Assembly (NCBI RefSeq): GCF_003314995.1
Contig: NZ_QNRH01000001.1
Location: 745,436 to 809,435, forward strand
DNA length: 64,000 nt
Direction of reading: 5' to 3'
DNA from: Pseudochrobactrum asaccharolyticum
Lineage (GTDB): Bacteria > Pseudomonadota > Alphaproteobacteria > Rhizobiales > Rhizobiaceae
Position 1 is the first letter of the stretch, and each line of letters begins with the position of its first letter. The notes under the pieces were generated by a model. It was given only the letters and a program-made list of their open reading frames with translations, was not told the DNA's origin and did not search any database. Made by a program: the position numbers and the translations under genes. Below are positions 18,058-46,609 of the stretch, one piece after another.

Positions 18058-18116
18058 ATAGATAAAATGAATGATGCGCCGGTAACCGGCATAGAAACCA
18101 TTCAAGGAGAATGAGC

Positions 18117-19562
18117 GTGTCCAACAGTTACGACGTTATTGTAGTCGGTGCCGGTCCGGGTGGTTATGTGGCCGCTATTCGTGCAGCGCAGCTTGGCTTG
18201 AAAACCGCTGTTGTTGAGCGTGAACATCTGGCTGGTATCTGCTCGAACTGGGGTTGTATCCCGACCAAGGCACTGCTGCGCTCCGCTGAAGTTAAGCATC
18301 TGGCAGAACATGCCAAAAATTACGGCCTGAAGCTTGAAGGTACTATCGTGCCGGACATTAAAGCTGTTGTTTCCCGTTCGCGCGGCATTGCCGAGCGCAT
18401 GAACGGCGGCGTTGGCTTCCTGATGAAAAAAAACAAGGTTGATGTGATCTGGGGCGAAGCCAAGATCACCAAACCGGGTGAAATCATTGTTGGCAAAACC
18501 AGCAAGGCACCGATGCAGCCGCAGGCTCCGCAGCCGAAAAATACACTCGGCGAAGGAACTTACACAGCCAAGCACATCATCATTGCGACTGGTGCACGTC
18601 CGCGTGCATTGCCGGGCATTGAGCCGGATGGCAAGCTGATCTGGACCTATTTCGAAGCCATGGTTCCGCAGGAACTGCCAAAGAGCATGCTGGTTATGGG
18701 TTCTGGCGCGATCGGTATCGAATTCGCTTCGTTCTATAACGACATGGGCGTTGATGTGACTGTTGTTGAGCTGATGTCCAATATCATGCCGGTTGAAGAT
18801 GCGGAAATCTCTGCCTTTGCCCGTAAGCAGCTTGAAAAGCGCGGCCTGAAAATCATCACTGAAGCCAAGGTTTCCAAAGTTGAGAAGGGCGCGAATTCCG
18901 TGACCGCTCATGTTGAAACCAAAGACGGCAAAGTGCAGACACTGACTGTAGATCGTATGATCTCGGCTGTTGGTGTGCAGGGCAATATCGAGAATATCGG
19001 CCTTGAAGCTGTTGGTGTAAAAACCGACCGTGGCTGCATCGTTGCTGACGAATATTGCAAGACCAGCGTTGCCGGTATTTATGCCATTGGTGACGTGGCC
19101 GGTGCGCCGATGCTGGCACATAAAGCTGAGCATGAAGCAGTTATCTGCGTTGAGAAAATCGCAGGTCTGCCAAATGTTCATCCGCTGGATAAAGCCAAGG
19201 TTCCGGGTTGCACCTATTGTAACCCGCAGGTTGCTTCTGTCGGCCTGACCGAAGCAAAAGCCAAAGAGCAGGGCTATGATATCCGCGTTGGCCGCTTCCC
19301 GTTTGTTGCGAATGGTAAAGCGATTGCTCTGGGCGAGGATCAGGGTCTGGTTAAGACCGTTTTCGATAAGAAGACCGGTCAGTTGCTCGGCGCCCATCTG
19401 GTTGGTGCAGAAGTAACCGAGCTCATTCAGGGCTTTGTGGTTGCCATGAATTTGGAAACCACTGAAGAAGAACTGATGCACACTGTATTCCCGCATCCGA
19501 CAATTTCCGAGACTATGAAGGAAAGTGTGCTAGATGCTTATGGCAAGGCTATCAATATCTAA
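18117..19562 (+). CDS. lpdA: Dihydrolipoyl dehydrogenase (E3)
   Basis: E3 is the FAD-dependent enzyme that reoxidises dihydrolipoyl groups of E2 with NAD. The protein of about 481 residues has the FAD-binding GAGPGGYVAAIRAAQLG at the N-terminus. The redox disulfide is in GICSNWGCIPTKALL, with Ser where many E3 enzymes have Leu/Val. The NAD-binding GSGAIGIEFASF is near residue 200, and the C-terminal dimer motif HPHPTISE appears as HTVFPHPTISETMKE. Start choice: AAGGAG (18104-18109) touches the ATG at 18111 but is ideally spaced for the in-frame GTG at 18117. Only the first two residues differ. Confidence 0.95.
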   Translation: MSNSYDVIVVGAGPGGYVAAIRAAQLGLKTAVVEREHLAGICSNWGCIPTKALLRSAEVKHLAEHAKNYGLKLEGTIVPDIKAVVSRSRGIAERMNGGVGFLMKKNKVDVIWGEAKITKPGEIIVGKTSKAPMQPQAPQPKNTLGEGTYTAKHIIIATGARPRALPGIEPDGKLIWTYFEAMVPQELPKSMLVMGSGAIGIEFASFYNDMGVDVTVVELMSNIMPVEDAEISAFARKQLEKRGLKIITEAKVSKVEKGANSVTAHVETKDGKVQTLTVDRMISAVGVQGNIENIGLEAVGVKTDRGCIVADEYCKTSVAGIYAIGDVAGAPMLAHKAEHEAVICVEKIAGLPNVHPLDKAKVPGCTYCNPQVASVGLTEAKAKEQGYDIRVGRFPFVANGKAIALGEDQGLVKTVFDKKTGQLLGAHLVGAEVTELIQGFVVAMNLETTEEELMHTVFPHPTISETMKESVLDAYGKAINI

Positions 19563-22424: not shown

Positions 22425-22922
22425 TCAATCGCTCAATGCTTGTAGAATAAGAGCAAAAGCAGCCTGCACTGTGGCTAACCGGATAGCATCACGCGATTGG
22501 TCGCCGAAACGGCACTCCTGATGCAGTGTTTCAAAATTCTGTCCGGCGCAGGCAATATGTACCAGCCCGACCGGTTTTTCAGTTGTGCCGCCGGAAGGGC
22601 CTGCAACGCCGGTCACAGCAATAGAGATGCCAGCTTGAGGGGCATGTTTCAGCGCACCTTCGGCCATGGCGATGGCGACTGGTTTGGATACGGCACCAAA
22701 TTCGCGCAGCAGACTGTGTGAAACGCCGATCAGTGAAGCTTTTGCTTCATTGCTATAGGTGACAAAGCCGCAATCAACGACATCGGAGGAACCGGCAATG
22801 TCGGTCAGTGCGGCGGCAATCATGCCGCCGGTGCAGGATTCGGCTGTGGTAATCATGAGTTGCGCCTTGCGGCAGGCATCAAGAACGGCGAGGGCTTGTG
22901 TGGTTGTTTTATTATTGCACAT
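22425..22922 (-). CDS. CinA-family nicotinamide-nucleotide amidohydrolase (PncC type)
   Basis: This is a stand-alone C-terminal CinA domain (about 165 residues) that deamidates nicotinamide mononucleotide in pyridine-nucleotide salvage. It has TTAESCTGGMIAAALTDIAGSS, VDCGFVTYSNEAKASLIGV and AVTGVAGPSGGTTEKPVGLVHIA. The start is unusual. The ATG at 22922 lies in one arm of a palindromic repeat (22917-22968). The well-placed ribosome-binding site (AAAAGGA, near 22990) instead serves an ATG at 22980 in another frame. In-frame upstream alternatives (ATG 22961, TTG 22973) would encode repeat-derived residues. Confidence 0.85.
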   Translation of the reverse strand: MCNNKTTTQALAVLDACRKAQLMITTAESCTGGMIAAALTDIAGSSDVVDCGFVTYSNEAKASLIGVSHSLLREFGAVSKPVAIAMAEGALKHAPQAGISIAVTGVAGPSGGTTEKPVGLVHIACAGQNFETLHQECRFGDQSRDAIRLATVQAAFALILQALSD

Positions 22923-22980
22923 GTTCTTGTCCCAAAACCGCTGCACACTTTTGGGGAACATGATGTGCAACAATACTCAT
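22912..22980 (-). other. Possible 22-codon upstream ORF overlapping the cinA start
   Basis: An ATG at 22980, eight bases after AAAAGGA, opens a 22-codon frame through the palindromic repeat. It stops (TAA, 22914-22912) just past the cinA ATG at 22922. The overlap would allow cinA to be translated by coupling. It may equally be a by-product of repeat insertion. Confidence 0.35.
22917..22968 (-). repeat. Palindromic element (type E) at the cinA start
   Basis: This 52-bp inverted repeat has GCACAT/ATGTGC ends and an inner CCCAAAA...TTTTGGG stem around CCGCTGCACAC. The core resembles intergenic palindromes common in rhizobial genomes (CCAAAACCG-TGCACACTTTTGG type) and is related in layout to the type C module (CCGAAAACCG-TTCACACTTTTCGG). 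Confidence 0.75.
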
Positions 22981-22993
22981 GATTAGTTTCCTT

Positions 22994-24223
22994 TTATGCG
23001 GGGACTTCACCCGGATAGATAACACTGACGGTTACAATCGAGGCAATGCCTTCCTTGCGGCCGACAAAGCCCATTTTCTCATTGGTCGTGGCTTTGACCG
23101 AAACTCTGTCAGCACTCACACCCAGCATATCGCTGAGTTCTGCAGTCATAGCTTCACGATGCGGGCCGATTTTCGGCTCTTCGGCAATTAGTGTAATATC
23201 GGCATTAGCAATGCGTCCACCGGCTTCACGCACGGTTTTGACGGCAAACTCGACAAATTGTCGTGAGGCAGCGCCTTTCCATTGCGGGTCAGACGGTGGA
23301 AAATGTGTGCCGATATCGCCTGCGCCACGGGTGGCAAGCAAAGCATCGGTCAGCGCGTGTAGCGCCACATCGGCATCGGAATGTCCGTTGAGCTTAAAGT
23401 CATGCGGGATTTTCACGCCGCAGAGCCACACATGGTCGCCCGGTTCGAAACTATGGACGTCGTAACCATTACCCGTGCGGATGTCCGGAAAAGCAACCAT
23501 ATCCTGACGCAAGCGCTGATCAGCCATTTCAATATCCTTTGCCCATGTAATTTTAGTGTTGTCGGCTGAGCCTTCGACAACACGAACAGGAATGCTCTGC
23601 CATTCAGCAATGGCGGCATCATCGGTAAAATCTGTGCGTCCCAGTACAAATGCTGCATTATGCGCATCCAATATGGGCGCAAAGGGGAAGCTCTGTGGTG
23701 TTTGTGCTGCAAATAGTCCCGCACGCGGCACCGTTTTGGTGACCAGTGCATCGCCGCCAGCCTGTTTCAGTGTGTCTGATACGGCAAGCGCAGGCAGCAC
23801 ACCGGTCTGCGGGTGCAGGGCTATCATAATGCGCTTGAGCAGGTCTTGGGTGATGAAAGGGCGCACGCCATCATGGATCATCACATAATCCGGCGCATCG
23901 TCCTGCAAAGCCAGCAGGCCGAGACGCGTTGATTCCTGACGGGTCGGGCCGCCGGTTACGAGCTTCAGGCGCGCGGCATCAATATCAGCACGTTTCAGCG
24001 CAGTGTGATAAAGGTCGTGATCGTCGGCATGGATGACCACAACAACGGGCGAAATCTGCTCGCAAGCCAGAAAGGTGCGTAAAGTATGCGCCAGCACGGC
24101 CTGACCGCCGATGCGGCGATATTGTTTAGGACCTTCGGTGCTCTGACCGGCGCGTTCTCCGCGTCCTGCGGCGACTATAACTGCTGCTGTGCGAATGAGA
24201 TAAGCCTTTCCGAGCTGCCACAC
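22994..24223 (-). CDS. ispDF: Bifunctional IspD/IspF of the MEP isoprenoid pathway
   Basis: This fusion carries two non-consecutive steps of the MEP pathway. The N-terminal domain (about 1-235) is IspD, MEP cytidylyltransferase, with [32 protein letters not shown] and TPQSF. The C-terminal domain (about 250-409) is IspF, MECDP synthase, with [45 protein letters not shown] and [16 protein letters not shown]. Such fusions are standard in alphaproteobacteria. No ATG precedes the conserved start; a GTG at 24223 without a clear ribosome-binding site is the only common start codon before an upstream stop. Confidence 0.95.
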
Positions 24224-45802: not shown

Positions 45803-45895
45803 AGAGCGGTTTCAGTACATGCTGAAACCGCTCTAGCTTTTGTTTTTACGCGCATTTTATCCGAAAACCGTTTCACACTTTTCGGAATGCGCTCT
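45803..45895 (+). repeat. Two-module palindromic intergenic element, type C
   Basis: Module 1 (45803-45834) is a perfect hairpin AGAGCGGTTTCAG...CTGAAACCGCTCT. Module 2 (45835-45895) holds CCGAAAACCGTTTCACACTTTTCGG and ends GCGCTCT. Module 2 recurs alone and inverted at 18004-18057. It lies in the 409-bp spacer between the dioxygenase-hydrolase gene and the tRNA genes. Confidence 0.82.
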
Positions 45896-46144: not shown

Positions 46145-46304
46145 GAGATGGTGAGCGCGCACGGGTTCGAACCGTGGACCTACTGATTAAAAGTCAGTTG
46201 CTCTACCGGCTGAGCTACGCGCTCTTGCAATCTCTTGAAAGACCTTGTGGTCTTTATCGGAGCACCTCGGTAATGCTCTGCAAGTGAGGCGATACATAAG
46301 GGGG
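46145..46304 (-). repeat. Tandem duplication unit with tRNA-Lys, unit 1
   Basis: About 160 bases, comprising the tRNA, a short leader hairpin (AAAGACC/GGTCTTT) and the conserved block CGGAGCACCTCGGTAATGCTC to ACATAAGGGG, recur at 46451-46609. The tRNA is identical and the flank is nearly so. The block probably holds the promoter (TTGCAG near 46283 and CGATAA near 46259 on the minus strand). Confidence 0.8.
46149..46224 (-). tRNA. tRNA-Lys (anticodon TTT), copy 1
   Basis: On the minus strand the 76-base sequence folds as a cloverleaf. The acceptor stem is GAGCGCG/CGCGCTC, the D arm starts TAGCTCAGCCGGTAGAGC, and the anticodon arm is CTGACTTTTAATCAG with anticodon TTT. The T arm has GGTTCGAACCC, with discriminator A and an encoded CCA. 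It is identical to the second copy 306 bases away. Confidence 0.97.
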
Positions 46305-46450: not shown

Positions 46451-46609
46451 GAGATGGTGAGCGCGCACGGGTTCGAACCGTGGACCTACTGATTAAAAGT
46501 CAGTTGCTCTACCGGCTGAGCTACGCGCTCTTGCAATCTCGTAAAGACACATGGTCTTTTATCGGAGCACCTCGGTAATGCTCAGCAAGTGGGGCGATAC
46601 ATAAGGGGC
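46451..46609 (-). repeat. Tandem duplication unit with tRNA-Lys, unit 2
   Basis: This is the partner of 46145-46304. The leader hairpin is kept but with different bases (AAAGAC/GTCTTT). The rest of the spacer up to ccdA (46610-47012) has no gene I can support. Confidence 0.8.
46455..46530 (-). tRNA. tRNA-Lys (anticodon TTT), copy 2
   Basis: It is identical over 76 bases to the copy at 46149-46224, including the encoded CCA. It is the upstream of the two in transcription direction. Its own promoter-like block is also duplicated. Confidence 0.97.

Follow-up and report, generated by a model that had tools for sequence, protein, structure and literature searches.

A dispersed palindromic repeat within cinA of Pseudochrobactrum parts the native start codon from the reading frame and carries a probable replacement start

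Palindromic repeats located in bacterial genes are already known, and the case of cinA in Pseudochrobactrum is a variant of that kind. The Rickettsia palindromic elements (RPEs) are described as short dispersed palindromes lying inside conserved protein genes that remain in use (PMC2229807), and the cinA repeat is likewise a short dispersed palindrome within a conserved gene still in use. However, RPEs are described as in-frame fusions, whereas the cinA insert shifts the frame by its 61 additional nucleotides, and it is the start of the protein that is replaced rather than its middle. Among related Alphaproteobacteria, the Brucella elements Bru-RS1 and Bru-RS2 (repeated palindromic elements, with copies given as 103 and 106 bp) and the Rhizobium-specific intergenic mosaic elements (RIMEs) are also short repeats, compared here by description only; the cinA copy is intragenic, whereas the name RIME implies an intergenic location. 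A text search of the literature for the core strings of the cinA repeat returned no repeat paper by title.

Translationally coupled gene pairs, described as relying on termination-reinitiation or on hairpin unfolding (PMC12548453; PMC10666635), offer a second comparison. In all three genomes carrying the insert, a short leader has its stop codon overlapping the following start, and this overlap lies in a hairpin that would be opened by ribosomes translating the leader. The cinA pair differs in its overlap, which is 11 nt versus 4 or 1, and in its upstream "gene", which consists of the cut-off beginning of cinA. A search of titles and abstract openings found no comparable start donated by a repeat.

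The window is a stretch of 64,000 nucleotides from Pseudochrobactrum asaccharolyticum (contig NZ_QNRH01000001.1), and positions given below are those of the window (Table 1). It was compared within a set of seven Pseudochrobactrum genomes, namely its own (G000) and G001 to G006. The filled allele is found in P. asaccharolyticum, P. kiredjianiae CCUG 49584 (G003) and P. saccharolyticum CCUG 33852 (G005), hereafter the carriers. The repeat-free congeners, with an empty allele, are G001 (a record titled Bacillus subtilis SK6B4), G002 (a Brucellaceae MAG, 61% complete), G004 (Pseudochrobactrum sp. sp1633) and G006 (isolate AFS058694). The CinA of record JAHREI010000002.1 (L069, titled Bacillus subtilis strain SK6B4) shares 97% identity with the window CinA and groups with Pseudochrobactrum; this record is probably mislabelled or mixed. 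Of 25 loci entered in the junction comparison, 24 gave a row (L013 gave none): 13 belong to the genus, 6 of these being repeat entries of the same contigs with record names, and 11 are outgroup rows, of which 8 are titled Brucella or Ochrobactrum. The insert is absent from all 11 outgroup rows.

Table 1. Features of the ispDF-cinA junction and a further repeat copy in the window.
Feature	Position	Strand	Basis
ispDF, upstream neighbour of cinA	22994..24223	-	ORF; Pfam IspD + YgbB (IspD + YgbB/IspF domains)
Shine-Dalgarno (SD) AAAAGGA of the ancestral cinA start, overlapping the ispDF stop codon	22989..22995	-	sequence
22-codon leader ORF, severed ancestral cinA 5' end (ATG 22980, TAA 22914-22912)	22912..22980	-	alignment with 4/4 repeat-free congeners
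Inserted segment (palindrome + A-rich tail), about 64 nt replacing one GAA codon (net +61 nt); boundaries accurate to within a few bases	22902..22965	-	ATG-to-Ala distance; family profile match
52-bp imperfect palindrome (RNA hairpin)	22917..22968	-	predicted fold
CCC-C in the leader phase; a +1 slip there would lead to the cinA frame	22953..22956	-	codon reading
Weak SD-like GGGA, 7 nt ahead of ATG 22922	22930..22933	-	sequence
cinA (PncC-type domain), likeliest current translation, 165 aa from the distal-arm ATG	22425..22922	-	Pfam CinA residues 10-162; selection
Alternative in-frame ATG, proximal arm	22959..22961	-	sequence; badly placed per initiation model
Alternative in-frame TTG codons (22970 in 3/3 carriers, 22973 in P. 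asaccharolyticum only)	22968..22973	-	sequence
Another copy of the cinA repeat family (G000:C1:791296-791320)	45861..45885	+	sequence

Comparing the filled allele with the empty one establishes the insertion, its place and the change of frame; the continued selection on cinA is likewise established. From the ATG corresponding to 22980 to a conserved Ala codon, the distance is 24 nt in the four repeat-free congeners and 85 nt in the three carriers. The difference, 61 nt, equals 1 modulo 3 in every carrier, and the host frame is not kept. The empty allele reads ATG AGT YTS RTW GCW GAA GAR CAR, i.e. MSL(I/V)AEEQ, and cinA reads there, in four of the seven genus genomes, from the ATG equivalent to 22980 (MSLIAEEQALAVL...). 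Judging from this alignment, the repeat sits within cinA, past codon 5, which means that the 22-codon ORF (MSIVAHHVPQKCAAVLGQEHVQ) is not a new one but the cut-off 5' end of cinA. The first-pass annotation had placed the repeat between the ribosome-binding signal and the gene. The insertion does part the SD and the start codon from the cinA frame, but it is located inside cinA; the idea that it had created an upstream ORF was abandoned, as the leader aligns with the cinA start of all four repeat-free congeners. Read from the sequence, the cinA frame of these four opens at the ancestral ATG, 12-14 nt past the ispDF stop, and the ATGTGC start, looked for in repeat-free relatives, is absent from all of them. 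A sequencing error was ruled out, the insert being common to assemblies from three species. That the repeat inserted twice, independently, at this site was also judged unlikely, since the ends, the loss of the GAA codon and a variant are all common to the carriers and since the best non-cinA match to the insert in the seven genomes (at E 0.001) is 94% identical over 33 of 63 nt.

The sequence features read at this junction in the first-pass annotation were confirmed. On the minus strand, AAAAGGA (22995-22989) stands ahead of ATG 22980, whose frame closes after 22 codons; in a simplified initiation model, the pairing of AAAGGAA to the anti-SD is worth -5.6 kcal/mol, with a spacing of 5. The cinA frame is a different one (+1 relative to the leader frame), and ATG 22922, in the distal arm, lies 8 nt before the leader stop. 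The 52-bp palindrome was also found as described, and a 111-nt segment containing it folds at -34 kcal/mol (z -4.57), with none of 200 shuffles equally stable. Leader stop and ATG 22922 share an 11-nt overlap (-11, ATGTGCAATAA); this overlap and the GGGA spacing are both identical in the three carriers. What had been missed is a second in-frame ATG (22961) and TTG codons 22970 and 22973, all upstream of ATG 22922 and each with an open frame to it. GTG 22946 is a further in-frame candidate in P. asaccharolyticum and P. kiredjianiae. In the cinA frame, a TGA overlaps the old ATG 22980. Thus, without frameshift, the start is confined to TTG 22973/22970 or to the repeat, and any ATG start falls within the repeat.

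Translated from ATG 22922, the product is MCNNKTTTQALAV in P. asaccharolyticum and MCNNKSTEQALAV in P. saccharolyticum, exceeding the ancestral protein by one residue, with MCNNKTTTQ at its N-terminus in place of MSLIAEEQ. The Pfam CinA match starts at residue 10 of this product (10-162). In NCBIfam, the PncC domain model scores above its cutoff and the nicotinamide-nucleotide amidase equivalog below, and the enzyme is therefore named by its domain only. Among solved structures, 2a9s (171 aa) is the best-scoring relative. The cinA body contains no stop in eight of eight genomes. Between carriers, pN/pS is 0.124 for P. asaccharolyticum and P. kiredjianiae (25 synonymous and 9 non-synonymous changes; p=1.6e-9), the cleanest pair since both carry the insert, and 0.149 (P. 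asaccharolyticum-P. saccharolyticum) and 0.198 (P. kiredjianiae-P. saccharolyticum) for the other two pairs, whose divergence may partly predate the insert; the six repeat-free congener pairs give 0.095-0.176. The cinA body is still under purifying selection in the carriers.

As the start is severed and cinA is nevertheless still selected, translation probably restarts from a start codon that the repeat provides. Initiation energies were calculated with a simplified thermodynamic model. In P. asaccharolyticum they are -0.7 kcal/mol at the ancestral ATG, +4.3 at ATG 22922, +11.6 at TTG 22970 and +15.1 at ATG 22961; the ranking is unchanged in the other two carriers, and the repeat-free congeners give -3.1 to +2.7 kcal/mol at their ATG. 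The favoured start candidate on sequence grounds is ATG 22922 in the distal arm and, in agreement with the first-pass annotation, the likeliest new start would thus be one supplied by the repeat. The 200-nt fold does not separate this codon from the ancestral ATG, since they are similarly paired (98% and 100%, respectively). At AUGUG sites, the choice between AUG and GUG is reported as possibly ambiguous (PMC9841429); the GUG of the cinA AUGUG site belongs to the leader frame.

We propose an account that we regard, as a whole, as reasonably probable: insertion of the repeat after codon 5, translation of a leader from the old start, and coupled restart of cinA at ATG 22922. A palindrome of the dispersed family would have inserted past codon 5 in a Pseudochrobactrum ancestor (net +61 nt). 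From then on, the old SD and ATG would serve a 22-codon leader terminating at the TAA in the repeat tail. Ribosomes translating the leader would unfold the hairpin, terminate 8 nt beyond ATG 22922 and restart at this codon in the distal arm, helped by the weak GGGA, with the cinA body read one frame over. The enzyme would retain its complete domain with a replaced N-terminus. Both the start used and its coupling to the leader are what we infer from the arrangement of the junction, and a coupled restart at ATG 22922 after leader translation seems likely. Short overlaps are reported to favour translational coupling (PMC10666635), and coupling drops as the overlap grows from -4 to -25 according to work cited in a review (PMC12548453). 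The 11-nt overlap at cinA, compared with the common -4 or -1, counts against coupling.

Ribosomes might also initiate directly at ATG 22922, the leader being an unneeded, passive remnant. The GGGA at a spacing of 7 nt and the energy of +4.3 kcal/mol, obtained with the local fold counted, are compatible with this; but the predicted fold leaves this ATG 98% paired, the leader signal is stronger and the leader runs through the site, and we consider this reading unlikely. If ribosomes initiated directly, without coupling, at ATG 22961 or TTG 22970, CinA would gain an N-terminal extension of 13-16 residues, mostly encoded by the repeat. Both codons are in frame, present in the three carriers and open to cinA. 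Yet both overlap the leader and are located in the hairpin or next to it, and in the simplified model they have no usable SD (+15.1 and +11.6 kcal/mol, respectively) next to a competitor, the ancestral ATG, at -0.7; we give such starts a small probability too.

Improbable as well is a start at the old ATG 22980 followed by a +1 slip on the CCC-C at the hairpin base (22956-22953), which would yield a fused MSIVAHHVPKSVQRFWDKNMCNNKTTTQALAV... with a repeat-encoded insert. A single step at codon 9 suffices for an unbroken frame in all three carriers, and CCCC stands directly before AAAAGTG in 1 of the 84 P. asaccharolyticum copies of the repeat and in 1 of the 61 P. saccharolyticum copies, each time the cinA copy. 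Also, CCC-C is described as a slippery context for tRNA-Pro (e.g., PMC4519876). However, CCCC is found in a G002 copy elsewhere (L147), so that the slip site is not peculiar to cinA within the genus; it was noticed post hoc, in a single lineage, and the slip is unnecessary given the downstream start codon. Spontaneous +1 slippage is generally low with normal tRNA modification. The corresponding view that the insertion made cinA a recoded gene, read through the repeat by a +1 slip at a CCC-C rare in the family, is in our opinion likewise improbable. Finally, the view that cinA has become a pseudogene in the carriers is extremely improbable and was rejected because of the purifying selection on its body: the native start is cut from the frame, but the body is free of stops and pN/pS is 0.124-0.198 between carriers versus 0.095-0.176 between repeat-free congeners.

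The inserted segment belongs to a dispersed palindromic family with the core AAAACCGNTNCNCACTTTT, which the cinA copy carries exactly (G000:C1:768369-768387). Exact cores number 84 in P. asaccharolyticum, 76 in P. kiredjianiae, 61 in P. saccharolyticum, 52 in G006, 50 in G001, 34 in G004 and 32 in the 61%-complete G002; the reversed control pattern gave 0 in all seven genomes. At least one core is present in 32 of 61 sampled family-level genomes, P. asaccharolyticum included. A family profile made from 143 copies of two genomes, with the cinA copies excluded, matches the cinA inserts of P. asaccharolyticum (35.4 bits), P. kiredjianiae (35.5) and P. saccharolyticum (43.3); the same search of two empty alleles (G001, G006) gave no match. 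In the P. saccharolyticum insert, the profile alignment extends through the A-rich tail to an AGAGC common to the host. An Rfam scan returned nothing at the cinA insertion site. Tandem arrays of three palindromes were observed at G000:C2:842139-842281 (59-bp period) and G005:C1:327116-327248 (57-bp period). In the window, a pair of tRNA genes of equal scores (46152-46224 and 46458-46530, minus strand, about 230 bases apart) begins at less than 300 bases from the repeat copy at 45861-45885.

The corresponding arm region contains an ATG in 73 of the 84 P. asaccharolyticum copies and in 44 of the 61 P. saccharolyticum copies, and start replacement may therefore be easy for this family. The long ORFs that extend from other copies (27 rows for P. 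asaccharolyticum and 21 for P. saccharolyticum, cinA included; 15 translated) showed no second clear donated start by eye. An acetyltransferase-like gene (G000:C6:40513-41025, L304; GNAT-type, named by eye) has also received a member of this family, as a 63-nt insertion that keeps the frame, with ends TTGGAGCG / TTAGAGCG, which is missing from G001, G003, G004, G005 and G006; the G002 fragment does not reach the site. Thus, with one insertion in frame and the cinA one out of frame, the family entered genes at least twice.

For the history of the insert, a tree was drawn from 12 genes of the neighbourhood, without cinA and one divergent gene (G002 and G022 gap-rich). P. asaccharolyticum, G001 and P. 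kiredjianiae fall on one side, and P. saccharolyticum, G006, G004 and G002 on the other. Carriers are thus present on both sides, and single-gene trees often conflict. Recombination at the ispDF-cinA site is visible in the alignments. Over the last 140 nt of ispDF, G001 shows 8/9 differences from G006/G004 versus 17/21 from P. asaccharolyticum/P. kiredjianiae, and its 14-nt spacer is that of G004; over the final 314 nt of cinA, G001 resembles P. asaccharolyticum, with 22 differences versus 70 from G004. The cinA of G006 is P. saccharolyticum-like over its first 160 nt and then closer to P. asaccharolyticum. A single insertion, with empty alleles spread by recombination, would best account for the patchy distribution, and we infer a single origin of the insert; transfer of the filled allele may also have occurred. 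Elsewhere in the window, the gene at 18111-19562 is alike in P. asaccharolyticum and P. kiredjianiae and far from G001, P. saccharolyticum and G006 (dS about 0.8-1.0, dN about 0.1), a pattern that suggests allele replacement.

Between P. asaccharolyticum and P. saccharolyticum, the cinA repeat differs at 1 position in 55 nt and the whole 64-nt insert at 4 (counted by hand), for a dS of about 0.6 in cinA and ispDF. Low repeat divergence as a sign of selection for coupling was rejected after comparing the 84 and 61 copies of these two genomes (17 row pairs, many from tandem arrays; 8 shared loci counted; two rows excluded, with elements differing at 20-21 of 44 sites). At cinA, the two copies agree at all but 1 of the 44 sites. 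Taking the best pair at each of the other seven shared loci, four have 0 mismatch, two have 1 and one, a tandem array, has 3-13 over the 44 nt, in a control biased to conserved cores because an exact core served as the query in both genomes. Other shared copies being about equally conserved (0-1 mismatch in six of the seven), the cinA copy is not unusually conserved.

The coexistence of filled and empty alleles within one genus constitutes a natural experiment on a gene surviving a frame-shifting insertion in its first codons. Also, our data suggest that automatic start calling may misplace the CinA N-terminus at this locus. If the ATG of the repeat is used, a conserved enzyme would owe its present start codon to a selfish-looking palindrome, which would also have forced a leader upon it.
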